DNA of 44,565 bases from a virus. The notes under the pieces were generated by a model. It did not search any database, was not told the DNA's origin, and saw only the letters and a program-made list of their open reading frames with translations. A program made the translations under genes and the position numbers. Location: the IMG/VR virus record IMGVR_UViG_3300023181_000013, positions 1-44,565 of that record; one strand, given 5' to 3'. Numbering within the stretch: position 1 is the stretch's first letter; each line of letters starts with the position of its first letter. Below, in pieces: positions 6,632-36,502 of the stretch.

Positions 6632-8038
6632 TTATGCGTAGCCCTTGGCCTTCATCGCCGCAAGCAGCACGTCCTGCACCGAGCGCTTCGTCTCCACCCG
6701 TTCGATGACCATTTCGTCTGCGGAATCCCTTGTTATTATGTTATGAATAAACATCGGCCGATCCTTCCCGGCCTGCATTTGCCGCGTCGGCCCGATGCGC
6801 TCGATGATCTGCAGCCGCTGCTCCAGGTTCCAGTCGTGGCCGAAGAAGGCCATGATGTTGGTGTGCTCTTGCAAGCCGTCGACGCCGTGGCCCATGCTGG
6901 CCGGGTGGCCCAACCACACCTTGCCCTCGCCCGCCTGCGCGCGCCGCACGCCTTCTTGGCTGTTCAAAGCTATGGCGTCCTTGCCAAATGCTTTGAGCAG
7001 GCGCGCGAGGTCGCTCTTGAACTGGATCGAGACCAGCACTGGCATGCCGGCCGCTTCCTCGACGATGTCCTCCAGCGCGTGGATCTTCGCGTCGTGCACC
7101 TCGGCCCATTCGCTACTGCCCGGCGAAAGGTAGGCGGCGCCGTTGGACAGCTGCAGCAGCTTGCCGATCTTCTGCGCCGCGCCCAGCGCCTCGATGCCGT
7201 GCATGGTGCCCATGGCCGCGATCTCCATGAAGGCGCGCTTCTCCATGTCCTGGTACAGCGCGCGCGCCTTGGGCGGCAGATCGACATAGATATTGTTGAC
7301 GATCGGGTCTTTCAGGTCGAACCAATCCTTGGCGTCGATGGTGACGCAGATGTCGCGCAGCGCGCGCTGGATCTGTTCCTGCGCGTGGTCCATCGGCTCG
7401 GTGCCGAAGCCGCTGTACTTCTTGCGGAACCACCGTTTCTTGAAGTCGTCGTACGTGCGGCCGAGCCGCGCGCCCTTGTCGAGGAACCACGCCTGGCCCC
7501 ACAGGTCTTCGAGGCCGTTCGGCGCCGGCGTGCCGGTCAGCTCGACGATGCGCTTGATCTTCGTGTGCGCCACCCGGCCGAGGGCCTTGGCGCGCTGGGT
7601 GCCTTGGCGCAGCCGGAAGCCCTTGAGCTTGGTGCTCTCGTCGATCACCACCGTGGCGAACGGCCAGCGGTCGCCGTAGTGCTCGACGAGCCAGGGCAGT
7701 TGCTCGAAATTTGTAGTGAGGATATTTGCGTCGTACTTCAGCGCGCGCATGCGCTCCTTCTCGCTGCCGGTGATCGGCAAGACGGTGAGGTGGCGCAGGT
7801 GGTTCCACTTGCGCACCTCGTCCGGCCAGGTCGTGGTGGCCACCCGCAGCGGCGCGACGACCAGGATCGGGCGATCGTCGAGCGCCTGCAGGGTGTCCAG
7901 TGCGTTGAGCGTCGCCACACTTTTTCCGGTTCCCATGGAACTCCACACGCCGCAGCGCTCGGTGTCGAGGATGAAGTCCGTTACGATTTTTTGATACGGG
8001 CGGGGGCTAAAGAGTCTTGGCGGAGCGGCGACCAGCAT
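6632..8038 (-). CDS. SNF2-type superfamily 2 helicase
   Basis: This 468-aa ATPase has the SF2 core: Walker A GTGKS (residues 36-40), DEST motif II (133-136), motif III (LTGTPAPN) and a C-terminal helicase domain. The arginine-finger motif VI reads approximately QRLQIIERIGPTRQ. Phage SNF2-like proteins of this size accompany family A polymerases, VRR-NUC nucleases and DUF2800/DUF2815 genes, and are thought to remodel DNA or protein-DNA complexes during replication or recombination. The start overlaps the 3' end of an HNH gene by 32 bases. Promoter copy A begins just after its stop. Confidence 0.9.
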   Translation of the reverse strand: MLVAAPPRLFSPRPYQKIVTDFILDTERCGVWSSMGTGKSVATLNALDTLQALDDRPILVVAPLRVATTTWPDEVRKWNHLRHLTVLPITGSEKERMRALKYDANILTTNFEQLPWLVEHYGDRWPFATVVIDESTKLKGFRLRQGTQRAKALGRVAHTKIKRIVELTGTPAPNGLEDLWGQAWFLDKGARLGRTYDDFKKRWFRKKYSGFGTEPMDHAQEQIQRALRDICVTIDAKDWFDLKDPIVNNIYVDLPPKARALYQDMEKRAFMEIAAMGTMHGIEALGAAQKIGKLLQLSNGAAYLSPGSSEWAEVHDAKIHALEDIVEEAAGMPVLVSIQFKSDLARLLKAFGKDAIALNSQEGVRRAQAGEGKVWLGHPASMGHGVDGLQEHTNIMAFFGHDWNLEQRLQIIERIGPTRQMQAGKDRPMFIHNIITRDSADEMVIERVETKRSVQDVLLAAMKAKGYA

Positions 8039-11647: not shown

Positions 11648-13894
11648 TCAGTCTTTCCGGTATCGATACGCCTCGAACCCCGCCGCCGCCAGGGGTAATC
11701 CGTCCGCCCACTCTGGAGCCTCGGCCATCAGTTCGGCCAGGTGCTCCGCGTTGTACTGCGGCTCGTCGGGCGCTTCGGCCAGGATCTCGTCGTGAATGGT
11801 CAGCACGATGGCGTAGCCGGCCTTTTCGATCGCCACCATGCTGGACGCCATCACGTCGCGCGCGACTGCTTGTGTTATATTTTCGACAATTTTTCCAGAA
11901 TATGTATCGATCCGGCCCCACTTCCGACTGTACTGATTCACGCCCGCGTAGGTGATCTTGGTCCGGCCACCTTCGCGCGTCGGCTCCTGACCTTGGCATG
12001 CGGTGCACGCTTCGAGGTGCGCCACGCCCGGCGGTTCCTCGCCTTGCCAGCCGCCGACCAACACCGTGTGGGTACCGCCGCATGCCGCGCACTCACCGGC
12101 GGAATCGACTTCGAAGTTGCGCTTTTTCTTTTCGGTTTCCAGCTTCGGCGCCGGATAGCATAGCGCACGGCCCGAGGGCAGCACGATGCGCAGCCAGGCG
12201 CCATCGCGGCGGATCTTGAGCATGCGCACCTGCACGGTGGTGCTCGGCGTGCTGATGGCCTCGCGCACCGCCGCGTCGACGTCGCGCCACAGCTGCACCA
12301 CGTTTGCATGGGCGTCGCGCCAGCCGAGCTTCAAGGACTCGCAGACCAGCCAGGCTTTATCGGATAGGCCCAAGCCCTCGGCCGGCTCGCGGCCCTGCTG
12401 GCGGTGCCAAGCAAGCATGATGTTGGCCTGCCCCCACACGTTGCCGGGGATTGAGCTTTGCGCGCTGTTGGCCAGTTCTTCCAGATCGATGCCGTAGCCG
12501 GCGGCGAAGGTGACGAAGGCGCCCACCCCGCCCTCGTACCCCAGGGCGAGTTCTTGAACCTTGCCTTTTTGTCTATCATTTTTAGTAACAGTTTTCGGGT
12601 CGACCCCGAACGACTTGGCGTAGGACAAAATGTACAGGTCCAAGCCGGTGCCGGCGTCGTAGTCGCGGAACGCCTTGAGCTTCCACGTTTCCCCGGCCAG
12701 CCACGCCAGCACCCGGCCTTCGATGTTGGACAAGTCGGCCACCACCAGCTTCTTGCCAGGTGGGGCGGTGATGCAGCCGCGAATGGCGTTGCTCGTCAAC
12801 TGCATCACATTGTCGTAGAGCAGATCGGCGATGCCGGCTTTCAGGGCCTCGATGCCCAGTTCAATGTCCGGGTTCTTCATGGTTGGCCGAGGTAGATTAT
12901 CCGGCTGGAATAGCCGGCCAGCCCACCGGCCCGTGCGCGCGGCGCCGCAGTATTGCTTCGTGCCCCGTAGCCGGCCGTCGCTGCTCACGCAGTTCATCAG
13001 CGCCGTGTACTTGCTGGTGCTGGTGGTGGTCGCCTGCAGTCGGATACGCAGCAGTTCGCGCAAGCCCTCAGGCAGCTCGGGGTCGGCGATGCGGCGCTCC
13101 AAGGTGGACTTCTGCATGTCGGGCAGATCGACGCCGTACTCGGTCAGAATATGCAGCATCATGGCGTCGCGCTTGGTCGCGCTCTCCACCTCGCCGGACG
13201 TCATATCGAACGTTTGCTCGCGCAGCGCCACCTGGGCGACGTCCACCGCCGCGACAGCCGCGCGCGCCAGATCGATGTCCATGCACATGCCGCGCCGGTT
13301 GATGGTCTGGTCAACGTGAAACACCGCGCGCTCGCCGACCAGGGTGCAATTCCATTTCGGCATGCGTTCGTAGCACTCGCGCATGGCGACGATATCGAGC
13401 GAAGCGTAATCCTTGAAGCGCGCCCACTCGGTCGGGTGCGTGGCGGCGGTGGCGCGCCCGCGCTTGAGGTTGCCGGCCGGCGGGATGCAAAACAGGCGAA
13501 TTAAATCCTTGCCGGCCTTGTCCTTGGCCTTGTCGCTCGGCACGCCCAGCACCTCGCACAAGGCCCCTAGCGAACCGGGCAGACTGTGCTGCAGCGCCTG
13601 AACCATGGTGTCGTGCAGGCGCGCCAGTGGAATGTCGATGCCCAGCGCCACTGCCAGGATGGTGGTGTCGAACATCGAACCGTTGTGCCAGACCGTGGTG
13701 ATCTCGTCGTCGACGAGGATCGCCGCAAGGTCGTCGGGCATCGGCGAGCCGCTGGTGAGGTCCCACACCTTGACGGGGCCGTCCTCCAGCGCGTAGGCCC
13801 ACAGCAGCACCTCCGCGCCCTCGGCATAGGCCCACGCGCCATGGCGGATCGGCACCTCGGAAAATGTTTCGAGGTCATGAAAACTCAGTTTCAT
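11648..13894 (-). CDS. Family A DNA polymerase with 3'-5' exonuclease and zinc-ribbon insertion
   Basis: This 748-aa replicative polymerase begins at ATG 13894 (GGAG 6 nt upstream; ATGA overlap with the HNH gene). The N-terminal proofreading domain keeps DxE (D7, E9), an Asn/Asp Exo II (N71, D76) and YxxxD (Y163, D167). Polymerase motif A is DLSNIEGR (D387). The O-helix reads R441-x3-K445-x3-L449-x3-Y453, with Leu where E. coli Pol I has Phe762. Motif C is HDE (701-703). Between the fingers and motif C, residues 602-633 form CxxC-x24-CxxC, a probable zinc ribbon not normal in Pol I. No 5'-3' exonuclease domain is present, as usual for phage enzymes. Confidence 0.95.
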   Translation of the reverse strand: MKLSFHDLETFSEVPIRHGAWAYAEGAEVLLWAYALEDGPVKVWDLTSGSPMPDDLAAILVDDEITTVWHNGSMFDTTILAVALGIDIPLARLHDTMVQALQHSLPGSLGALCEVLGVPSDKAKDKAGKDLIRLFCIPPAGNLKRGRATAATHPTEWARFKDYASLDIVAMRECYERMPKWNCTLVGERAVFHVDQTINRRGMCMDIDLARAAVAAVDVAQVALREQTFDMTSGEVESATKRDAMMLHILTEYGVDLPDMQKSTLERRIADPELPEGLRELLRIRLQATTTSTSKYTALMNCVSSDGRLRGTKQYCGAARTGRWAGRLFQPDNLPRPTMKNPDIELGIEALKAGIADLLYDNVMQLTSNAIRGCITAPPGKKLVVADLSNIEGRVLAWLAGETWKLKAFRDYDAGTGLDLYILSYAKSFGVDPKTVTKNDRQKGKVQELALGYEGGVGAFVTFAAGYGIDLEELANSAQSSIPGNVWGQANIMLAWHRQQGREPAEGLGLSDKAWLVCESLKLGWRDAHANVVQLWRDVDAAVREAISTPSTTVQVRMLKIRRDGAWLRIVLPSGRALCYPAPKLETEKKKRNFEVDSAGECAACGGTHTVLVGGWQGEEPPGVAHLEACTACQGQEPTREGGRTKITYAGVNQYSRKWGRIDTYSGKIVENITQAVARDVMASSMVAIEKAGYAIVLTIHDEILAEAPDEPQYNAEHLAELMAEAPEWADGLPLAAAGFEAYRYRKD

Positions 13895-14424
13895 ATCTTG
13901 CTCCATGTGTACCCGTACGCGGTGCGTTGCGCGCCCCGGATGCACGCGCTAATCGCACTGGGGCTACGGCGGCCAATCAGCTGCAGCGCCGCCTGCGCCA
14001 TGGATGGGTACTCGACCACCGGCCCGCCAGCGACCGGAACGCCGCGCACGCGAATGGCGCCCGTGTTCAAGCCAAGACGCACCGCGTGATCGTGGTTCGC
14101 GGTGCGGCCGAGCCATTCCAAATTCGTGGCGGCGTTGTTCTTTTTATTCCCGTCGATATGGTTGACGTCGAGTTTCGGATCGGCGCCGGGGTGGAAGGTG
14201 AGCGCCACCAGCCGGTGCACGGTCTTGGCAAACGCCTTGTTATCCAGGTGCATGTGCACCACCTGATAGCCACTGTTAATCGTCTGCTGCGCGATGATGC
14301 GCTCACGCACGCGGCGCAGGCCATGGCGCCAGCGCTGCATAAACGACAGCGCCTTCACCCGGCCTTGGTCGCTCACCTGATAGCGGCCCTCGAAGCCCGC
14401 GATGTCTTTCCACTGTTCGGTCAT
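13891..14424 (-). CDS. NUMOD4/HNH homing endonuclease next to the polymerase gene
   Basis: This 177-aa protein has an N-terminal NUMOD4 motif (EQWKDIAGFEGRYQVSDQGRV, residues 3-23). The HNH nuclease core contains VHRLVALTF and NHIDGNKKNNAATNLEW (about 69-104). A C-terminal NUMOD1-like segment (VEYPSMAQAA) would contribute DNA recognition. It is coupled to the polymerase gene (ATGA) and to the gene upstream (ATGA). DNA polymerase genes are a classic home for such elements, and a duplicated polymerase fragment lies at the polymerase's other end. Confidence 0.92.
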   Translation of the reverse strand: MTEQWKDIAGFEGRYQVSDQGRVKALSFMQRWRHGLRRVRERIIAQQTINSGYQVVHMHLDNKAFAKTVHRLVALTFHPGADPKLDVNHIDGNKKNNAATNLEWLGRTANHDHAVRLGLNTGAIRVRGVPVAGGPVVEYPSMAQAALQLIGRRSPSAISACIRGAQRTAYGYTWSKI

Positions 14425-14846
14425 TTCGTCAAATCCTCAAAATCGTTGATAGGGCCGCACTTCGCAACAGCAGCGCGGCACACGTCGCTGGCGGCGCAGA
14501 CGGCCACCACGCGCTCGCACATGGCCACGTCGAACAGCACCATGTGGCAGGCGGACACCGGCAGGTGCAACTGAATCGCCAGCCAGTCGTAGGCGTCGCC
14601 GCGCGAGAGGGTGCCGGACTGCCACAGCGGGTCGAATGCTCCGTGAGCATCGATCCGGGCGCGGGCCAGTGGGCTACCCGGCGCCGCCTTCAGCGCCTTG
14701 CGGTCGATGAACGACTCGGGCGGCACGTGCATGGCGCGCCGGTCGGCCTGCCGCACCTCGGCCTGTTTCTTCGGGCTGCGGTTGCCGAAGAACCGGCGCC
14801 GGCTGGTGCCGATGTGCTTGTCCTCGTGGTCGTCGAAGTAGGTCAT
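14421..14846 (-). CDS. DUF3268-like protein lacking the N-terminal zinc finger
   Basis: This 141-aa protein starts at 14846 (ATGA overlap with the clamp-like gene). Residues about 64-112 (RIDAHGAFDPLWQSG, DAYDWLAIQL and MVLFDVAMCERVV) match the C-terminal part of phage DUF3268 proteins as I remember them. The usual N-terminal zinc finger (CxxC ... CxxC) is not visible; instead the first 45 residues are basic and disordered-looking. It may be a shortened member. Function of the family unknown. Confidence 0.6.
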   Translation of the reverse strand: MTYFDDHEDKHIGTSRRRFFGNRSPKKQAEVRQADRRAMHVPPESFIDRKALKAAPGSPLARARIDAHGAFDPLWQSGTLSRGDAYDWLAIQLHLPVSACHMVLFDVAMCERVVAVCAASDVCRAAVAKCGPINDFEDLTK

Positions 14847-15430
14847 GGCGCGGTCTCGCCGCCCCACTGCACCAGGCCGGTGTCCGGATACTTCTCAGTG
14901 AACGCACGAAGCGGCATGATGACGCCGACGAATTCATCGTCGCGGCCGTAGAACTGCACCTGCGCGCCGCCTTCACCGTTATGTCGGATGATCGGCTGGC
15001 TTTTCACGCCGAGCGCCTTGGCGGCCTTGAGGAACCGCGCCAGGAATTCGACGTTGAACTGCGCCGCCTCGCCGCTGCACTGGCGCGGGATAATTCGACG
15101 ATACGGCGGAAATTTGCCGTCGACGGGAGTGAAAGCGATACCTGCTAGCGACCACTTGCCGTCGTCAAAAGCCAGGGTGACAGTCTGGCTTTTGTTGGTG
15201 ATCGCCAGCTTAACAGTGTCGTTCGGGATAATGACGTCAGGGAGGACGTCCTGCTCGCCTACCAGAACAACGTCGCGCAGTACACCGGCCATGTTGCCGT
15301 CGGTCGCCGCAAGGCGGGTCTCGGTGGCGCGCACCTCGGCGAAAACGCCTTTCAGGTAATAACGCACGTCGGCCTCGGCCGTGAATTGGTAAGCTGCTTT
15401 CAGATGGGCGGTGTTGATGGCTACTTGCAT
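14843..15430 (-). CDS. Compact sliding-clamp-like protein (beta-clamp homologue)
   Basis: This 195-aa protein has an excellent ribosome site (GAAGGAGTCAAA). Residues 21-45 (DVRYYLKGVFAE ... LAATDGN) match domain II of E. coli DnaN (DVRYYLNG...TVATDGH, recalled). GKFPPYRRIIP (105-115) matches the domain II/III linker (GRFPDYRRVLP), and VGVIMPLR (168-175) matches the conserved clamp C-terminus (VVMPMR). Domain I and part of domain III are absent, so about half of a normal clamp remains. A processivity factor for the neighbouring polymerase is the obvious inference; how such a short chain would close a ring is not known. Confidence 0.7.
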   Translation of the reverse strand: MQVAINTAHLKAAYQFTAEADVRYYLKGVFAEVRATETRLAATDGNMAGVLRDVVLVGEQDVLPDVIIPNDTVKLAITNKSQTVTLAFDDGKWSLAGIAFTPVDGKFPPYRRIIPRQCSGEAAQFNVEFLARFLKAAKALGVKSQPIIRHNGEGGAQVQFYGRDDEFVGVIMPLRAFTEKYPDTGLVQWGGETAP

Positions 15431-15750
15431 TTTGACTCCTTCGGATGAAATTCTAGGGGCACATCTTCATGCGCAACGCCACGGGCGCGCGCCTGGTTGT
15501 AAATGCCGTGCGGGTGTTGGTCGCACGACGGGTGGGTGATGCGGTGCGGGAACGGCTCGTTGTTCCGCCCGAGCGGGCCGCCACAGTGGCACAGCCCGCG
15601 CTTGTTGTAGGCCCGCTGCTCGATCCGCCAGCCCTTGCGCGAGCCACACACCTCGCACTTGGGTGTGATGCGGTACTCGTCGGGGTGGATGCGCGACACG
15701 CGGCGGTGGCGGCAAGACGAATTCCTGCAGCGGATCGAGTAGGTGGACAT
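15421..15750 (-). CDS. Cysteine-rich zinc-binding protein
   Basis: The ATG at 15750 (TGATG overlap) gives 109 aa with CRNSSC near the N-terminus, CEVC, then a CHC...C cluster, interspersed with many Arg and His. This is consistent with one or two zinc ribbons binding nucleic acid. The longer upstream frame (to 15906) is an Arg-rich shadow of the neighbouring gene. It sits between the SSB-tail gene and the clamp-like gene, so a replication-related role is plausible. Confidence 0.65.
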   Translation of the reverse strand: MSTYSIRCRNSSCRHRRVSRIHPDEYRITPKCEVCGSRKGWRIEQRAYNKRGLCHCGGPLGRNNEPFPHRITHPSCDQHPHGIYNQARARGVAHEDVPLEFHPKESKCK

Positions 15751-15965
15751 CAGAACGGGATTTCGTCGTCTATGTCGTCGAAGTTGAACTGGCTCGGTTC
15801 GTTCTCGGCAACGCGGCGGAAGTTGGCCGCGATCTCGTCGGCGTCGTCCGCATGCTGACGCAGATGGCGCGCGTTTTCTTCTGCAGCGTCGGCCTCGTTG
15901 CGCCATTGCTCGGCTTGCTTTTCCTTCTCGATTGCTTCGTGCAGCAGTACGTCTTTGAATTCCAT
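15750..15965 (-). CDS. Coiled-coil protein with SSB-type acidic C-terminal tip
   Basis: This 71-aa protein has a ribosome site GGAGAACGAT. Residues 5-55 form one long charged helix (coiled-coil-like, rich in Ala, Glu and Arg). The protein ends FDDIDDEIPF. Bacterial SSB proteins end in an almost identical tip (DDDIPF), which docks PriA, RecO, ExoI, the chi subunit and other repair factors. Here the tip is on a small helical protein next to the phage ssDNA-binding protein gene, which itself lacks IPF. It may recruit or sequester host SSB partners. Confidence 0.7.
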   Translation of the reverse strand: MEFKDVLLHEAIEKEKQAEQWRNEADAAEENARHLRQHADDADEIAANFRRVAENEPSQFNFDDIDDEIPF

Positions 15966-16007: not shown

Positions 16008-16553
16008 TTAGACCAGATCGTCGGCGTCGGCGCCTTCGATGATGTCGAAGTCGGTTTCCTTGGCCGGCGAGCCGCCGCCGAACGCGTCACCCTTCTTGAC
16101 GAACTGGACGCCGCCCAGCGAGAAGCTGACACCCTGGCCCGGCTTGTCGTAGCAGAACACCTCGACCGATGCGTTGACGTAGCAGCCGGCGTACACCACG
16201 CCGTCGGCTTCGGTCACCGGCGAGCGGTCACGGTCGATGACCAGCGGGCGGGTGGTGTTCTTGGCCGTCAGCGCCATCATGCCCTCGTAGCCGTCGTAGG
16301 TCTTCTTGTCGCCGTCGGCGTAGCCGAAGCGGTTGCTGTTGTCGCGGATGCCGTCGACGATCTTCGGCGCCTTGGTCGCGCCCCACTTCAGCGCCGCCGT
16401 CTCCGAGATCGCTTTCTGGACGGCCTTGTCGTTGTCGCTGCCCTTCTCGATCAAGAACGTGGCTTTGAACTTCGGCTCGTCGCCGGCCTGGAACGGCTCG
16501 GCCTTGAACAGGCCAGGGAAGGACAGGCGGACGTTTTGCAGTTTGATTTTCAT
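16008..16553 (-). CDS. Single-stranded DNA-binding protein, DUF2815/Enc34 family
   Basis: This 181-aa protein matches the phage DUF2815 family, whose Enc34 member was shown to be an OB-fold ssDNA-binding protein. Diagnostic stretches include KLQNVRLSFPGLFKAEPF at the N-terminus, FKATFLIEKGS, and the central YEGMMALTAKNTTRPLVIDRD. The C-terminus is acidic (GADADDLV) but lacks an IPF tip. It would coat ssDNA at the replication fork and is encoded next to the DUF2800 nuclease, the usual order in this module. Confidence 0.85.
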   Translation of the reverse strand: MKIKLQNVRLSFPGLFKAEPFQAGDEPKFKATFLIEKGSDNDKAVQKAISETAALKWGATKAPKIVDGIRDNSNRFGYADGDKKTYDGYEGMMALTAKNTTRPLVIDRDRSPVTEADGVVYAGCYVNASVEVFCYDKPGQGVSFSLGGVQFVKKGDAFGGGSPAKETDFDIIEGADADDLV

Positions 16554-16573: not shown

Positions 16574-18199
16574 TTAAATTAAATCGGACAGGTCGTCCGC
16601 GTCGGGCAATGCTTCAAAATCGTCGACCACCGGGGTGATCGTTACTGCGGGGCGCTTGTCGGCCGCTGGCGCCACAGACAGGCCGGCTTCGCTGCGGGTG
16701 ATGAGCGCCAGCAACTTCGGCCATTGCTTCTTGCCGATGATGCCGTCGGCGTACAGCTTCTCGGCCGTGGTCGGGCTGATCAGCGTCCAGTCGTACATCA
16801 CGTCTTGCTTCAGGCGCATCGACTTCATCATCTTCTCGGCCTCGGCGGCATCCGAGAACTTCCGGATACCCTCGCGGCCCTTGACCAGCTTGAAGCCGGG
16901 CACCTCGCCGCCGGCCAGCATGCGTCGCTCCAGCTCAGCGCGCACCGCCTTGGCCCAGCCCTCCACCAGGTCGATCGACTCGCCCAAGAGGCCCAGCTGT
17001 TCGTCGCTGGCGCTGGCCAGGCGCGCCTCGGGGTTCTCCAGGGCCGGGCGCAGGGTGGGCTTTTTGACGATGAAGTGCGCCGGCACCAGGTCATTGATGT
17101 CGTTGCCGATCTCGAAGTCCACCTTGCCAGGCGCCACACCGTGCGCCGCCGCGATGATCTTCTCGGCGTCGATGATGGACACCGCGATCTCGCCTTTGCC
17201 CAGTGCGATCAGGTTCTCGACCACGGGGGTGACGACTTCCACCGTGCGGCCCTCTTCGCCGACGACTTCATCGACGATCACCTCGAAGTCGCCCGCCACC
17301 GTCGCCAGCACCTGGTCGCGCAGCGCCGGGCAACTCGCCTTGGCTTTGCAGAACCGGCACTGGTCGGGGCCGGGGGACAGCATACCGGTGATATCGGCAA
17401 TGGTTTCCGCGCCGTCGGTGACGTTCTCCACCAAGGACAGCGCCAGCTTTCCGGCGGCGATCGCCCGCTGCTCGAAGTCGCGCAACTGTGACACGCTGCA
17501 TTCCCAGGTGTCGACATGGTTCAAGCGCGGCTGGTGGACGGTCATCAACACATACTCGATATCGCCCAGCAGATCAAACTCGTCCAGCGCGCCGAGGGCG
17601 TAGAGCATCAGCTGCTCATTCCATTCGGCATCGACCTGCACACCGCGACCGTACTTCAGGTCGATGACGTGCATCTGCGAGCCGCGAACAATCACCGCGT
17701 CGCTGGTGCCGAACTGGTCCGGGATCACGCCGGCGAAGATAGGCAGGCGCTGCTCGACGTGCAGCTCGCCGCCCTGCGCCGCTTCGCGCACCGCGTCGAT
17801 GTACTTCTGCACCTCGCGGCACATGTCGGCGTCGGCCGAGAAGAAGCGCCCCGAGTCGCGGTCGTCGTCACCGGTCAGATCAATCTCCCAGCAGGTTCGG
17901 TGGTAGCCGACAAACACACGGGTGCCCAAGAAGAACTTCGCATCGTGCTCGCCCTCCAGGCACTCGGACGCCAGGAAGTGCGCGGCGGTGCCCTCGTCGG
18001 CAAACTCGCTGCCTTTGTCGGGGATGTCGGCCTCCATGGCCAGCGAGCCGGCGCACAGGAGCCATCTTTTCGCGCCGCTCGGGGAGAGTTTGGCGTGTGC
18101 GGCGCGGTGCGGTTCGTCCAGGCTGATCTTGCCCGAGGCGAGCGCGGCCAGCTTCTCGCGCTCGTCCGGTCCGATCAGCGGATGAAGTTTGGCCGTCAC
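16574..18199 (-). CDS. DUF2800 RecB/Cas4-like nuclease with Fe-S cluster cysteines
   Basis: This 541-aa protein uses a GTG start 2 nt after the upstream stop. It has the phage DUF2800 signature: [18 protein letters not shown] with C49, H74 in GTAAH, D167 in GTSDAVI and IDLKYG with D180 and K182 (PD-(D/E)XK motif). [10 protein letters not shown] completes a four-Cys iron-sulfur site as in Cas4/AddB. It likely acts as an exonuclease in phage recombination or end processing with the DUF2815 protein. The last residues, DLSDLI, are identical to the end of the methyltransferase gene product. Confidence 0.88.
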
Positions 18200-23001: not shown

Positions 23002-23352
23002 ATGCCAAGCATATTTATCCCCGCACCATCCGGAACCACCGCCCTTGTCGCTTACCTCCACGAAGATGGCCACATAGCATCAGTAGACAACGCCGTTTTC
23101 GCTTTTGAAATCCAAGAGGGCAGCGAGCGCCCCTGGTGCCTCCCTGTTGGAATCGCCGAGATCACTGTAGATGACGACGACATTCTCGGCATCCAAATGG
23201 CGGATGGGACGGTAGCCCAAGACAGTTTTATTTTTGAATCAGCTGACGCCTTTTTCCGTAATTGCAAAGCGGTATTCGCTTTCCGCGCCAAGCGCAAGGC
23301 GGCGGTCCTAGCCGAGCACGAAGCCCGTAAAGCCGCTAAGGATCTGCTGTGA
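23002..23352 (+). CDS. Hypothetical protein (116 aa)
   Basis: Follows the structured leader; ribosome site weak (AGAAAG). An N-terminal beta domain (SIFIPAPSGTTALVAYLHEDG, VFAFEIQEGSERPWCLPVG) carries an acidic loop (VDDDDILG). A basic C-terminal helix (FAFRAKRKAAVLAEHEARKAAKDLL) follows. Its TGA overlaps the primase-helicase ATG (TGATG), so the two are probably translated together. A replication accessory role is possible. Confidence 0.65.
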   Translation: MPSIFIPAPSGTTALVAYLHEDGHIASVDNAVFAFEIQEGSERPWCLPVGIAEITVDDDDILGIQMADGTVAQDSFIFESADAFFRNCKAVFAFRAKRKAAVLAEHEARKAAKDLL

Positions 23353-25523
23353 TGGCTACCAAACCCGAATTGCCAACCCTCCTGCCCGTAGCCGTTGACG
23401 GCATTCCCTCATCAATGCTCGACACATCACGCTGGGCGCCGTGGCGCGCCGTGTGGAACGAGAAGAAGAAAAAATACGAGAAGATCCCGCACCGCATCGA
23501 CCGGCCTGGCGCCGGCCTGTCGACGAAGTCGACCAAGGGCTGGGCACCCTTCCACAAGGCCATGGCCGTCTACCTGCAGAACCCTGGCAAGTTCGCCGGG
23601 GTCGGCTACTTGATCACGGGCGAGAAAATCCCCGGCAGCGCCGCCGATGTGTTCGCCCCTGGCGACCTGGCCGGCGTGGACCTGGACCACTGCCGCGACG
23701 CCACCACCGGTGAGATCGCACCGTGGGCCGCCGAGGTGATCGCCAAGCTGGACAGCTACACCGAAGTCTCGCCGTCGGGCACCGGGTTGCGCGTGATGGT
23801 GCGCGCCGGCATCGACGCCGATACAATCGACCACCAGCAGGGTATCGAGATCTACGGCGGCACCCAGGCCCGTTTCGTCACGATCACCGGGCAGCGCGTC
23901 GACGGGTCGCGGCGCGACGTGCGGGCGGCTCCCCTCGGCGTGCTGGAAGGCTTGGCGGCCAAGTACCGGCGCCAGCGCACCAAGGCCGAGGTGGAGGACT
24001 TGCACCTGCCGCCGCTGATGTCCGCCATGGACCTGCCCGACCTGTCCGATCTGGACCTGCCGCCGCACGCGGCCAACTTCTTGGCTGAAGGCGCAGACCC
24101 TGGCGGGGACAGGTCCGGGGCTTTGTTCGCTACCTCGGTCGCGCTGGCGCAGGCCGGATGCACACGCGAGCAAATTCTGTCCATTTTGGAAGCAAACGAA
24201 TACGCCATGGAAGTGGCGCTCGACCACCGCCGGCAGGACTACGACAAGGCGTTGCGCTACCTGTGGAAGGACCATTGCCGTGCCGGCGCCGCCAAGGCCA
24301 AGCAGATCGACGACGAACTGCGCGACGACTTCGAGGTGATGGAGCCAGTGGCGCCTGGCGCGGTCGACGCCGAGGTAGAAGACTTGCTCGGCGGCGCGCC
24401 CGAGGTAGCCGCCCCCGACGAGCCGCAACCTGTTGATGCATCAGGGGATTTTGACGATCTAGGCCCTGATCCAGACGCGCAAGTAGCCGCCCGCGACCTA
24501 TCCCCGGTGCGCCGTGAGAAGTTCGCGGTGAGCGGGGCGGGCGAGTTTGCCAGTGGCCCGCCGCAGCAGTGGATTATCAAAGGGCTATTGCCCAAGGCGC
24601 AAGTGGGGATGATCTACGGCGAGTCGACGGCGGGCAAGTCGTTCGTCGCTATGGATATGCTCGGCTCCATAGCTCGGGGCCTGCCGTGGCGCGGTATGCG
24701 CACGAAGCAGGGCCGGGTGGTGCTGGTGGTGGCCGAGGGCCTCATGGGCGCGCGCGGCCGTCTCAAGGCCTATGCACAGCACCATGACGTCGACCTGGCC
24801 GAGGTGCCCTTCGGGATCATCGGTGACGTGCCGAGCATGCTGCTCAAGGACGACGTCAAGGCGCTGGCCAAGCAGGTGGTGGAATGGGGCGGCGCCGATA
24901 TCATAGTGCTTGACACCTTGGCCCAGTCGTCGGCCGGCGCAAACGAGAACTCCGGAGAGGATATGGGTAAGGTGCTGGCCCACTGCCGGGGTTTGAACAA
25001 GATGACGGGGGCTATGGTGCTGCTCGTCCACCACGCCGGCAAGGATGCCTCACGGGGCGCGCGCGGCTGGTCGGGGCTGAAGGGGGCCATGGACGTCGAG
25101 ATAGAGGTCACCCGGTCCAAGCTGCTGGGCCGCAATATCCAGCTGTCCAAGGCCAAGGACGGCGACGAGGGTAAGGCCATGGGTTTCAAGCTCCAGGTGG
25201 TGACGATCGGCACCGACGAGGATGGCGACCCTATCACCTCCTGCGTGGTGGAGCACAGCACAGGCGCGGCCGTGGTGGAAGACGCCAAGGACGGCCTCAA
25301 GGACGACCACCGCGCGGTTCTCCGGGTGCTGACCGAGGCGGCGGATCTTGACGCCGATATGCACTATGAAGACCTCCGCCGCGCCACCGTCCCTCACATG
25401 GAGCAACGCGGGAAAGTGGACAACCGGATGCGTGACGCAGGCAAGGCGATCGAGAAACTTGAGGCCTTGGGATACGTCCAGAAAGATGCCGAGAGCCGCT
25501 ACACCCTGAAGTCGCAAGAATAA
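23352..25523 (+). CDS. Primase-polymerase / RepA-type helicase fusion
   Basis: The ATG at 23352 gives 723 aa (a GTG one codon upstream is possible). The N-terminal half resembles phage AEP-type primase domains, with GVDLDHC (D110, D112), YTEVSPSGTGLRVMV (137-150) and IEIYGGTQARFVTITG (165-180). After a flexible acidic linker (330-385) comes a RecA/RepA-like ATPase with Walker A GESTAGKS (423-430), Walker B IIVLD (D521) and the VLLVHHAGKD...GWSGLKGAMD region (557-580). The final 60 residues look like a winged helix. It would prime and unwind DNA for the family A polymerase. Confidence 0.88.
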   Translation: MATKPELPTLLPVAVDGIPSSMLDTSRWAPWRAVWNEKKKKYEKIPHRIDRPGAGLSTKSTKGWAPFHKAMAVYLQNPGKFAGVGYLITGEKIPGSAADVFAPGDLAGVDLDHCRDATTGEIAPWAAEVIAKLDSYTEVSPSGTGLRVMVRAGIDADTIDHQQGIEIYGGTQARFVTITGQRVDGSRRDVRAAPLGVLEGLAAKYRRQRTKAEVEDLHLPPLMSAMDLPDLSDLDLPPHAANFLAEGADPGGDRSGALFATSVALAQAGCTREQILSILEANEYAMEVALDHRRQDYDKALRYLWKDHCRAGAAKAKQIDDELRDDFEVMEPVAPGAVDAEVEDLLGGAPEVAAPDEPQPVDASGDFDDLGPDPDAQVAARDLSPVRREKFAVSGAGEFASGPPQQWIIKGLLPKAQVGMIYGESTAGKSFVAMDMLGSIARGLPWRGMRTKQGRVVLVVAEGLMGARGRLKAYAQHHDVDLAEVPFGIIGDVPSMLLKDDVKALAKQVVEWGGADIIVLDTLAQSSAGANENSGEDMGKVLAHCRGLNKMTGAMVLLVHHAGKDASRGARGWSGLKGAMDVEIEVTRSKLLGRNIQLSKAKDGDEGKAMGFKLQVVTIGTDEDGDPITSCVVEHSTGAAVVEDAKDGLKDDHRAVLRVLTEAADLDADMHYEDLRRATVPHMEQRGKVDNRMRDAGKAIEKLEALGYVQKDAESRYTLKSQE

Positions 25524-34556: not shown

Positions 34557-34793
34557 ATGAAAACCACAGCAACCGCACTCGACAGTTTCGCCCACGACGC
34601 CCGCACTTACGTGGCCGGCGATCCGGTCGACGCAAGCCCCGGTGAGATGGCCGACCTGGAAAAGGCCGGCTTGGTATCCACCAGCAAAGCCGCGCCAGCC
34701 GACAGCCAGGACGACCTGCTGGGCGGCGAGAAGATGGACGAAGCACCAAAGAACAAAATGGCCCCAGCGCCAGCCGACAAAGGTAAAAAATAA
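34557..34793 (+). CDS. Small head-region protein (78 aa)
   Basis: Begins with a good ribosome site (CCAGGAGCAG). The first half is a small domain (TATALDSFAHDARTYVAGDPVD...LEKAGLV). The second half is disordered, with Pro, Ala, Lys and Asp. It lies between the capsid terminator and the SGNH gene and is coupled to the latter by TAATG. Similar small proteins in this position are often connector or head accessory proteins; function unknown. Confidence 0.65.
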   Translation: MKTTATALDSFAHDARTYVAGDPVDASPGEMADLEKAGLVSTSKAAPADSQDDLLGGEKMDEAPKNKMAPAPADKGKK

Positions 34794-36502
34794 TGACCAT
34801 CCGCCTGCTCTCGACGTACGACGGCTTCGCGCCTCAGTCCATCATCACGCTGGACTCGGCGCTGGAGGCCTCGCTGATTGCGGGCGGCAACGCCACCGCG
34901 ACACTGACCGGCGGCACCGTGGCGTATCGCGAGCGGCAACCGGTGATGATCCAGCCGGCGGTACCGAAGCGCGGCACGGTCAGCTTGATCGCCAACCGCA
35001 AGGCCATCGTGCCTCTGACGGAAGGCTCGGCCCTGACGATCACGCCGACGGCCGGCACCACCGGCACCTATCAGCGCTACGACGCCAGCGGCGCGGCCGT
35101 GGGCGCGCTGACGACGATTGGCGCGGCGCCACTGACGATAGGCGCATTCGAAGGTGACTTCACCGTCGAGATCAAGTGCACGACCGGCTCGCTGGTGGCG
35201 AAGACTGCCGATGCGGTGTTGAGGGTCGTGCAGACGTCTCGCCCCGCCAACACGTGGGTCGCCCTGGGGGATTCGATGACCGGTCAGGCCACGAATCCGC
35301 TGGTTGCCGACTACGGCAGCATGACGCCGCCGCTGCCGACGTCGACGACGTTCCCTGCGGTTGTCAGTTTCAATGATCGAGGCACAATTGCATGGGCCAA
35401 CGTTTTCCTGAACGGCCAAATGCAGTTGTTGCGAAACGCCGGCGTGGGTAGCAACCGCGTCGAGCACATCTTGGCCCGGATGGACGCGGATGCGCTGTCC
35501 CTGTCGCCGAAATACGTCAGCGTAATGGCAGGGTATAACAACATTGTCAATAGTGACACTACCGCTAATATCACTGCGGTTTTGGGAACCATTTTCGACA
35601 AGATTTTAGCCAGCGGAGCAATTCTGTTGGCGTGCACGATTCTCCCGAATGCCACGCAAATTAATGCTGTTCCAGCAAAGTTGGTAGTTTATAACCAAGT
35701 CAACAACTTCATCAAGAATTACTGTGCAGCAAATGCAGGTGCATACCTAATCGATGTTGCTGAATCGTTCCTCGACATCACCACCGGGGGAGAGCTATCC
35801 GGCTACTACCAGGTGGACAATATTCACCCTGTGATGAAAGGATCAATCCCGTGGGGTCAGTATTTCGCCGCTCGCGTTTTGCAAATCATAGGTCTGAAGA
35901 GTTCGCCGCTGCCGACCAGTCCGCTCGATCTTTTCACTAACTTCAAGGGCGGGAACATGCTTACCGGCGGCCGCATGGTGGGCACCGGTGGTACCAATAC
36001 AGGTACCGGCATGTCAGGTTCGGTGGCCACTGGCTGGACGCACCAGTTAGAGTACGGCACTGCCACTTCCGTTGCCTCAAAGGTTGCGCGTACAGATGGC
36101 GTCCAAGGGGAGTGGCAGCAGATAGCTGTTAGCTCCGTCACTGCTAGCTCGGCAGTTCGCCTGCAAAAAACGATCACCGTCGCGTCCGGGGCGTTCGCCA
36201 TCGGTGAGACCATTGGCGGCTCGATGATGGAAGTAGCGGTCGATGCCGTCAATGCTGTGTCGTCGCTGCAGCTGATAGCGCAGGTGCAAAATTCCAGCTT
36301 CGCGGATATCGAAATCCACTCGTGCATGCTGAATGGACCGGCTTCGGTAGTCACACCTTTCGGCACGGCCCTGTTCCAGATTCCGGACTTCGTTATTCCG
36401 GCGCTTACTAATCATATCGTGTTCAAACTGATCGTCACCCTGGCTATCGGCTCAACGATCACATTGCGAGCAGGCCGCGCAGCATGCCGAAACTTGAGCT
36501 AA
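34793..36502 (+). CDS. Capsid-adjacent SGNH/GDSL hydrolase
   Basis: This 569-aa protein has a beta-rich N-terminal anchor (1-145). The SGNH catalytic core (152-365) shows GDS with nucleophile S161, an oxyanion Gly in AGVGSN (about 217), block III GYNN (N249/N250) and DNIHP with D342 and H345. A beta-sandwich-like C-terminal domain (375-569) of carbohydrate-binding appearance follows. SGNH enzymes deacylate or de-esterify glycans and lipids. Being encoded between the capsid gene and the connector, it may be displayed on the head. A tail attachment is not excluded. Confidence 0.82.
   Translation: MTIRLLSTYDGFAPQSIITLDSALEASLIAGGNATATLTGGTVAYRERQPVMIQPAVPKRGTVSLIANRKAIVPLTEGSALTITPTAGTTGTYQRYDASGAAVGALTTIGAAPLTIGAFEGDFTVEIKCTTGSLVAKTADAVLRVVQTSRPANTWVALGDSMTGQATNPLVADYGSMTPPLPTSTTFPAVVSFNDRGTIAWANVFLNGQMQLLRNAGVGSNRVEHILARMDADALSLSPKYVSVMAGYNNIVNSDTTANITAVLGTIFDKILASGAILLACTILPNATQINAVPAKLVVYNQVNNFIKNYCAANAGAYLIDVAESFLDITTGGELSGYYQVDNIHPVMKGSIPWGQYFAARVLQIIGLKSSPLPTSPLDLFTNFKGGNMLTGGRMVGTGGTNTGTGMSGSVATGWTHQLEYGTATSVASKVARTDGVQGEWQQIAVSSVTASSAVRLQKTITVASGAFAIGETIGGSMMEVAVDAVNAVSSLQLIAQVQNSSFADIEIHSCMLNGPASVVTPFGTALFQIPDFVIPALTNHIVFKLIVTLAIGSTITLRAGRAACRNLS

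Follow-up and report, generated by a model that had tools for sequence, protein, structure and literature searches.

Strand pairing suggests that the half-motifs of the bacterial sliding clamp DnaN follow round the ring in the order II-B, II-A, III-B, III-A. Herpesvirus UL42 is a monomeric processivity factor with the PCNA fold, composed of two full domains and strongly basic. The DnaN pocket for clamp-binding motifs comprises 18 positions (R152, L155, T172, G174, H175, R176, L177, P242, R246, V247, N320, Y323, V344, V360, M362, P363, M364, and R365), and the conserved residues of the DnaN dimer interface are Ile78, Phe106, Ile272, and Leu273 (PMC11139829). The monomeric I272A/L273A variant of beta retains DNA binding but no longer tethers Pol III, and its affinity for delta, a subunit of the clamp loader, exceeds that of the dimer about 50-fold (PMC11139829). 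Phage N4 gp8 is described, in the passage of PMC12817073 that cites it, as inhibiting host replication via the clamp loader. Here, we describe a half-sized relative of DnaN, the mini-clamp, encoded in a 44.6-kb virus record (44,565 nt, about 63% G+C; the whole stretch analyzed is called the window below). The mini-clamp family is real, widespread, and mislabeled, and there is a small chance that it represents a new clamp architecture.

Results

The mini-clamp coding sequence (14843 to 15430, minus strand; 195 amino acids) starts with the ATG at 15430 and ends with the stop codon at 14845 to 14843; a ribosome-binding site, GAAGGAG (15436 to 15442, minus strand), was read directly from the sequence a few bases upstream of the ATG. 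Nei-Gojobori omega was 0.05 to 0.15 in seven pairs of homologs (0.09 for the window protein and L013), and this purifying selection shows that the mini-clamp is not a decaying fragment. The gene lies in a leftward operon, all on the minus strand, that runs from an exonuclease (DUF2800, PD-(D/E)XK; 16574 to 18199; PF10926, 299 bits; phrog_69) through an Enc34/gp2.5-like ssDNA-binding protein (16008 to 16553; PF10991, 126.9 bits; phrog_112), a 161-amino-acid protein (15421 to 15906; phrog_17384 only), the mini-clamp, a DUF3268 zinc-finger protein (14421 to 14867; PF11672, 63.6 bits), and a NUMOD4/HNH homing-type endonuclease (13891 to 14424; PF07463 and PF13392) to a family A DNA polymerase of 748 amino acids (11648 to 13894; Pfam PF00476, 51.8 bits; phrog_17), the gene of which lies 0.95 kb downstream of the mini-clamp; a SNF2/DEAD helicase of the same module (6632 to 8038; PF00176, 61 bits; phrog_62) follows further on. 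The mini-clamp open reading frame overlaps its neighbors on both sides, by 10 bases with the 161-amino-acid protein at its start and with the DUF3268 gene at its end, which suggests co-translation. The endonuclease frame, between the mini-clamp and the polymerase, has a 4-base overlap with the polymerase start. Elsewhere in the window, a gene for a primase/helicase-type replication protein (23349 to 25523, plus strand; phrog_906, 187 bits) is on the strand opposite to the polymerase operon, and a lipase/esterase-like gene (34793 to 36502, plus strand; phrog_6102, 90 bits) stands within the structural gene block.

An earlier note on this DNA had read the product as a half-sized beta-clamp-like protein that lacked domain I and kept only part of domain III, and had proposed structure prediction and profile searches as checks. 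The open reading frame is real, and the likeness of its product to DnaN is far above chance. With the window protein alone as the phmmer query against the PDB, the significant matches were DnaN chains only (best E value, 9.9e-8); BLASTP against Escherichia coli DnaN gave an E value of 3e-12, and a profile of 61 family sequences matched only DnaN in the PDB (best E value, 1.8e-28). The Pfam domain DNA_pol3_beta_2 (PF02767, the DnaN central domain) scored below threshold in the window protein (23 versus 27 bits) but was matched in 60 of the 61 family members at an E value of ≤0.1. The monomer predicted with AlphaFold2 (pLDDT 94.8, pTM 0.88) had a clamp fold, and the best 50 PDB fold matches listed were all DnaN (E values from 2e-10; TM-score, 0.66 to 0.71 by query length); neither the model nor the profile search gave a non-clamp fold. 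Judged by sequence comparison and the predicted structure, the window protein is a clamp in both ancestry and fold.

In the AlphaFold2 model, the secondary structure runs beta-alpha-beta-beta-beta, beta-alpha-beta-beta-beta, alpha-beta-beta-beta. The first segment (residues 1 to 62; 15245 to 15430, minus strand) corresponds to the first half of domain II (sub-profile against DnaN II-A, 4.7e-20), the second (residues 63 to 116; 15083 to 15244, minus strand) to the second half of domain II (sub-profile against DnaN II-B, 1.1e-13), and the third (residues 117 to 176; 14903 to 15082, minus strand) to the linker and the second half only of domain III, with a sub-profile match to DnaN III-B (5.3e-6) and to III-A at background only. 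Collinear BLASTP blocks pair residues 10 to 117 with E. coli DnaN 138 to 251 and residues 125 to 175 with 319 to 365, so the retained piece of domain III is its second half. DnaN residues 1 to about 125 (domain I) are missing, and residues 252 to 318 are replaced by about 7 residues, as the earlier note had supposed in outline; the chain holds 1.5 clamp domains in place of the three of DnaN. A MAFFT placement of the third helix on the first half of domain III was ruled out by the sub-profile and BLASTP results, both of which gave the second half. We are highly confident of this anatomy, a complete domain II plus the second half of domain III. Given the DnaN ring order, the three retained half-motifs (II-B, II-A, and III-B) would follow one another without a gap and have the pocket at their center, and the deletion would take out exactly the ring-closing neighbor, III-A. 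A C-terminal tail that includes W189 (14846 to 14902, minus strand) has no counterpart in DnaN. A tryptophan occurs in the last 40 residues of 40 of 61 relatives, often as P-x-W; the tail was modeled with fair confidence and might lie in the pocket or over the half of domain III that is left open.

All 18 pocket positions fall in segments that the mini-clamp retains, among them the DnaN signatures quoted in the earlier note. DVRYYLKG (15347 to 15370, minus strand) belongs to the DNA/loading loop and the pocket and carries R152, Y154, and L155 as R23, Y25, and L26, mostly near-invariant in the 61 sequences. By the family alignment, ATDG (15296 to 15307, minus strand) contributes T172 and G174 to the pocket as T43 and G45; FPPYRRIIP (15086 to 15112, minus strand) forms the II/III linker and supplies P242, R246, and V247 as P108, R112, and I113; and VIMPLR (14906 to 14923, minus strand), which includes the quoted MPLR, is the C-terminal strand with the equivalents of V360 to R365. 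R152, L155, T172, G174, P242, R246, M362, P363, and R365 are unchanged in the window protein, and H175, R176, and L177 have become N, M, and A. Across the family, subsite I is nearly complete and subsite II partial, with Y or F at the Y323 position in 35 of 61 sequences and L in 25. Mean column entropy was 1.08 at pocket positions versus 2.33 elsewhere (p = 5e-6; 61 sequences), and of the 16 positions with the strongest conservation, 7 were pocket residues (p = 2e-4), although such conservation could also reflect the needs of the fold. In every one of the 61 members, the three helices that face DNA have a net positive charge (+4.0 versus −3.9 for the remaining core; 1.8% of circular shifts reach the observed value), which suggests real contact with DNA. 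The pocket for clamp-binding motifs and part of the helix surface that faces DNA are both built from the retained half-motifs, and the mini-clamp probably binds clamp-binding motifs.

Relatives were found in 213 phage records (Escherichia phage ChristineMuster_Bas80 is one of the carriers) and at least 503 confirmed IMG/VR stretches, typically with 30 to 40% identity to the window protein. The best PHROG match was phrog_3007 (110.7 bits; residues 2 to 176 versus 2 to 186 of 190), the proteins of which (e.g., Burkholderia phage BcepC6B gp31, Bcep781 gp15, and Sodalis phage SO-1 gp7) are homologous to the mini-clamp over nearly its whole length. The window member has the C-terminal tail, whereas members of the Sf11/SO-1 type lack it, and its gene stands in a replication operon, whereas those of SO-1, Sf11, and Bcep781 are isolated among structural genes. 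Earlier annotators had already spotted the likeness to a clamp, Bcep781 gp15 being recorded as “DNA Pol III b subunit fragment” and SO-1 gp7 as “putative DNA polymerase III beta subunit; possible moron gene product.” A functional study or paper on the family was not found among the open-access papers searched, where absence is weak evidence. PHROG 3007 and 12598 (e.g., L006:7001-7537 and L012:4995-5513) carry the label “RusA-like Holliday junction resolvase,” which has spread into RefSeq phage records. For BcepC6B gp31 (L004:6992-7594), the annotated start at 7079 looks about 29 codons late, with homology from near a GTG at 6992. A scan of the genome collection with the window protein alone gave no match, and one with L038 as the query gave seven remote relatives in bacterial assemblies; the remote matches L117, L119, and L121, in Candidatus Giovannonibacteria and Niyogibacteria assemblies, may be host DnaN or short clamps. 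A fused mini-clamp copy in a 1,394-amino-acid polyvalent protein (A0A6J7W9M3) was set aside as a weak match (TMq 0.39).

The pairing with a family A polymerase stressed in the earlier note is genuine in this genome, but it is no rule, since about half of 40 carriers go without. Among these 40 carrier records, which include some incomplete IMG/VR records, a family A polymerase (phrog_17) was detected in 20 (one a weak 13.8-bit match) and a family B polymerase in 1; Pol III alpha and a DnaX/HolB-type clamp-loader ATPase were each found in none. Complete isolates, such as Sf11, AB4P2, P400, and Ab9, also showed no polymerase of family A or B and no Pol III alpha. The polymerase family occurs in 1,223 phage records versus 213 for the mini-clamp. 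In one and the same module order (exonuclease, ssDNA-binding protein, polymerase, VRR-NUC-type nuclease, and helicase), the mini-clamp is present directly after the polymerase gene in BcepC6B and Acinetobacter phage 4316 and, as checked by profile, absent from the equivalent modules of BPP-1, K1G, and vB_EcoM-606R2. The gene is thus a cassette that the polymerase module may carry or lack. In vB_EcoM-606R2, a gene with a TIR-like domain (L114:4375-5136) fills the slot that the mini-clamp occupies in BcepC6B and Acinetobacter phage 4316, which suggests that accessory genes have a hot spot there. A regex scan found no clamp-binding motif common to the carriers' polymerases (the window polymerase gave one weak match, L107 two). 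The sequence QLGLL at exonuclease residue 401 was considered as such a motif and is taken as chance, because it is not conserved in relatives. Neighbor clustering over 81 loci returned no single partner gene; the mini-clamp was divergent from terminase genes in 25 loci and within 7 kb of a family A polymerase in 20.

Discussion

I78, F106, I272, and L273 all lie in segments absent from the mini-clamp; with domain I and the first half of domain III missing, there is no DnaN-type dimer interface, and closure into the usual dimeric DnaN ring would not be expected, in line with the earlier note. Since the socket is kept and the ring-closing parts are lost, the mini-clamp probably competes with the cell's clamp or adapts it and is no ordinary clamp itself.

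We tentatively favor a ring-less accessory clamp module that would rival the host clamp or sequester its loader, ahead of a ring-less processivity adaptor, a novel ring, and a PCNA-like trimer; of the two suggestions in the earlier note, a putative decoy for clamp-binding proteins fits best. The precedents for this preference are monomeric beta, with its tighter hold on delta, and the targeting of the clamp loader by N4 gp8. An accessory, mostly monomeric mini-clamp would compete with the host clamp for clamp-binding proteins or would trap the host clamp loader. A carrier that brings its own family A polymerase would benefit if Pol III were blocked, and a Pol III-dependent carrier might, speculatively, benefit from timing or from selective inhibition of, for example, Hda, MutS, or repair polymerases. 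The anatomy, the conserved pocket, the lost ring closure, the accessory distribution, and purifying selection all support competition, as do the polymerase modules without a mini-clamp and the lack of a common clamp-binding motif in carriers' polymerases. Against it stand the basic helices in every member, which a pure decoy does not need; the location of the gene, in the window's lineage, beside or close to the polymerase within a replication operon; and the only partly kept subsite II, with the window's changes at H175 to L177.

These basic helices are also what speaks most strongly for the next reading, a somewhat less probable one, in which a monomer or open oligomer would touch DNA through these helices and hold a phage or host polymerase in its pocket, with a logic like that of UL42. 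The shared operon with polymerase, ssDNA-binding protein, exonuclease, and helicase in the window, BcepC6B, and Acinetobacter phage 4316, and the position directly behind the polymerase gene in the latter two, fit such an adaptor. They are offset by close polymerase relatives that manage without a mini-clamp, by carriers without a detected family A, B, or C polymerase, by the partner polymerases' lack of a common clamp-binding motif, and by the failure of monomeric beta to tether Pol III (PMC11139829).

Two further readings keep a ring. Arithmetic and symmetry allow a putative closed D2 ring of four chains with three half-motifs each (4 × 3, as DnaN has 2 × 6 and PCNA/gp45 3 × 4, 12 in all), in which each III-B would pair with a III-B from the neighboring chain, and the unpaired domain II edges would join one another; the retained half-motifs, consecutive round the ring if DnaN topology holds, and the preserved basic inner helices agree with it. 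We nevertheless consider it improbable, as no DnaX/HolB-type loader occurs in the 40 carriers, D2 symmetry puts pockets on both faces, unlike in known clamps, and conservation gave no direct hint of self-interfaces. Such a tetramer, a long shot, would be a new clamp stoichiometry with peptide pockets on both faces, loaded without a phage DnaX/HolB-type loader. The PCNA-like head-to-tail homotrimer suggested in the earlier note has the clamp fold and the half size in its favor and is very doubtful: it does not follow from 1.5 domains per chain, against two complete ones in PCNA, head-to-tail closure would need an edge that is part of the missing III-A half, and neither the family-profile search nor the listed PDB fold matches included PCNA-like or gp45-like chains. 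The RusA-like Holliday junction resolvase named in PHROGs and many RefSeq phage records has practically no claim, for although the best PHROG match, phrog_3007, bears that name, the Pfam RusA domain was found in 0 of 61 members, the DnaN central domain in 60, and the listed PDB fold matches are all clamps.

Hundreds of tailed phages, among them enterobacterial phages that are easy to grow, carry what is apparently the best-connected hub of bacterial replication cut down to a peptide socket. If the mini-clamp is a clamp competitor or loader trap, as we favor, it would be a natural inhibitor of a recognized antibacterial target and, for phages, a general strategy of takeover; a ring-forming mini-clamp would be a new clamp architecture. 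In either case, the RusA resolvase label is unsupported and hides the family from replication researchers.

Among known systems, the mini-clamp shares with bacterial DnaN (E. coli, 2POL/1MMI) the sequence and fold of domain II, the second half of domain III, the clamp-binding-motif pocket, and the C-terminal MP-R strand, but has 195 instead of 366 amino acids, lacks domain I, the first half of domain III, and the dimer interface, and carries an added C-terminal tail. With PCNA and T4 gp45 it has in common the general clamp fold and a short chain, whereas these proteins have two complete domains, form trimeric rings, and show no detectable sequence similarity to it. UL42, unrelated in sequence, may be a working analogue of a ring-less clamp that touches DNA. 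Monomeric beta I272A/L273A likewise keeps the pocket without ring closure; unlike the mini-clamp, it is a laboratory mutant with the full three domains (PMC11139829), of which the mini-clamp would be, in logic, the natural analogue.
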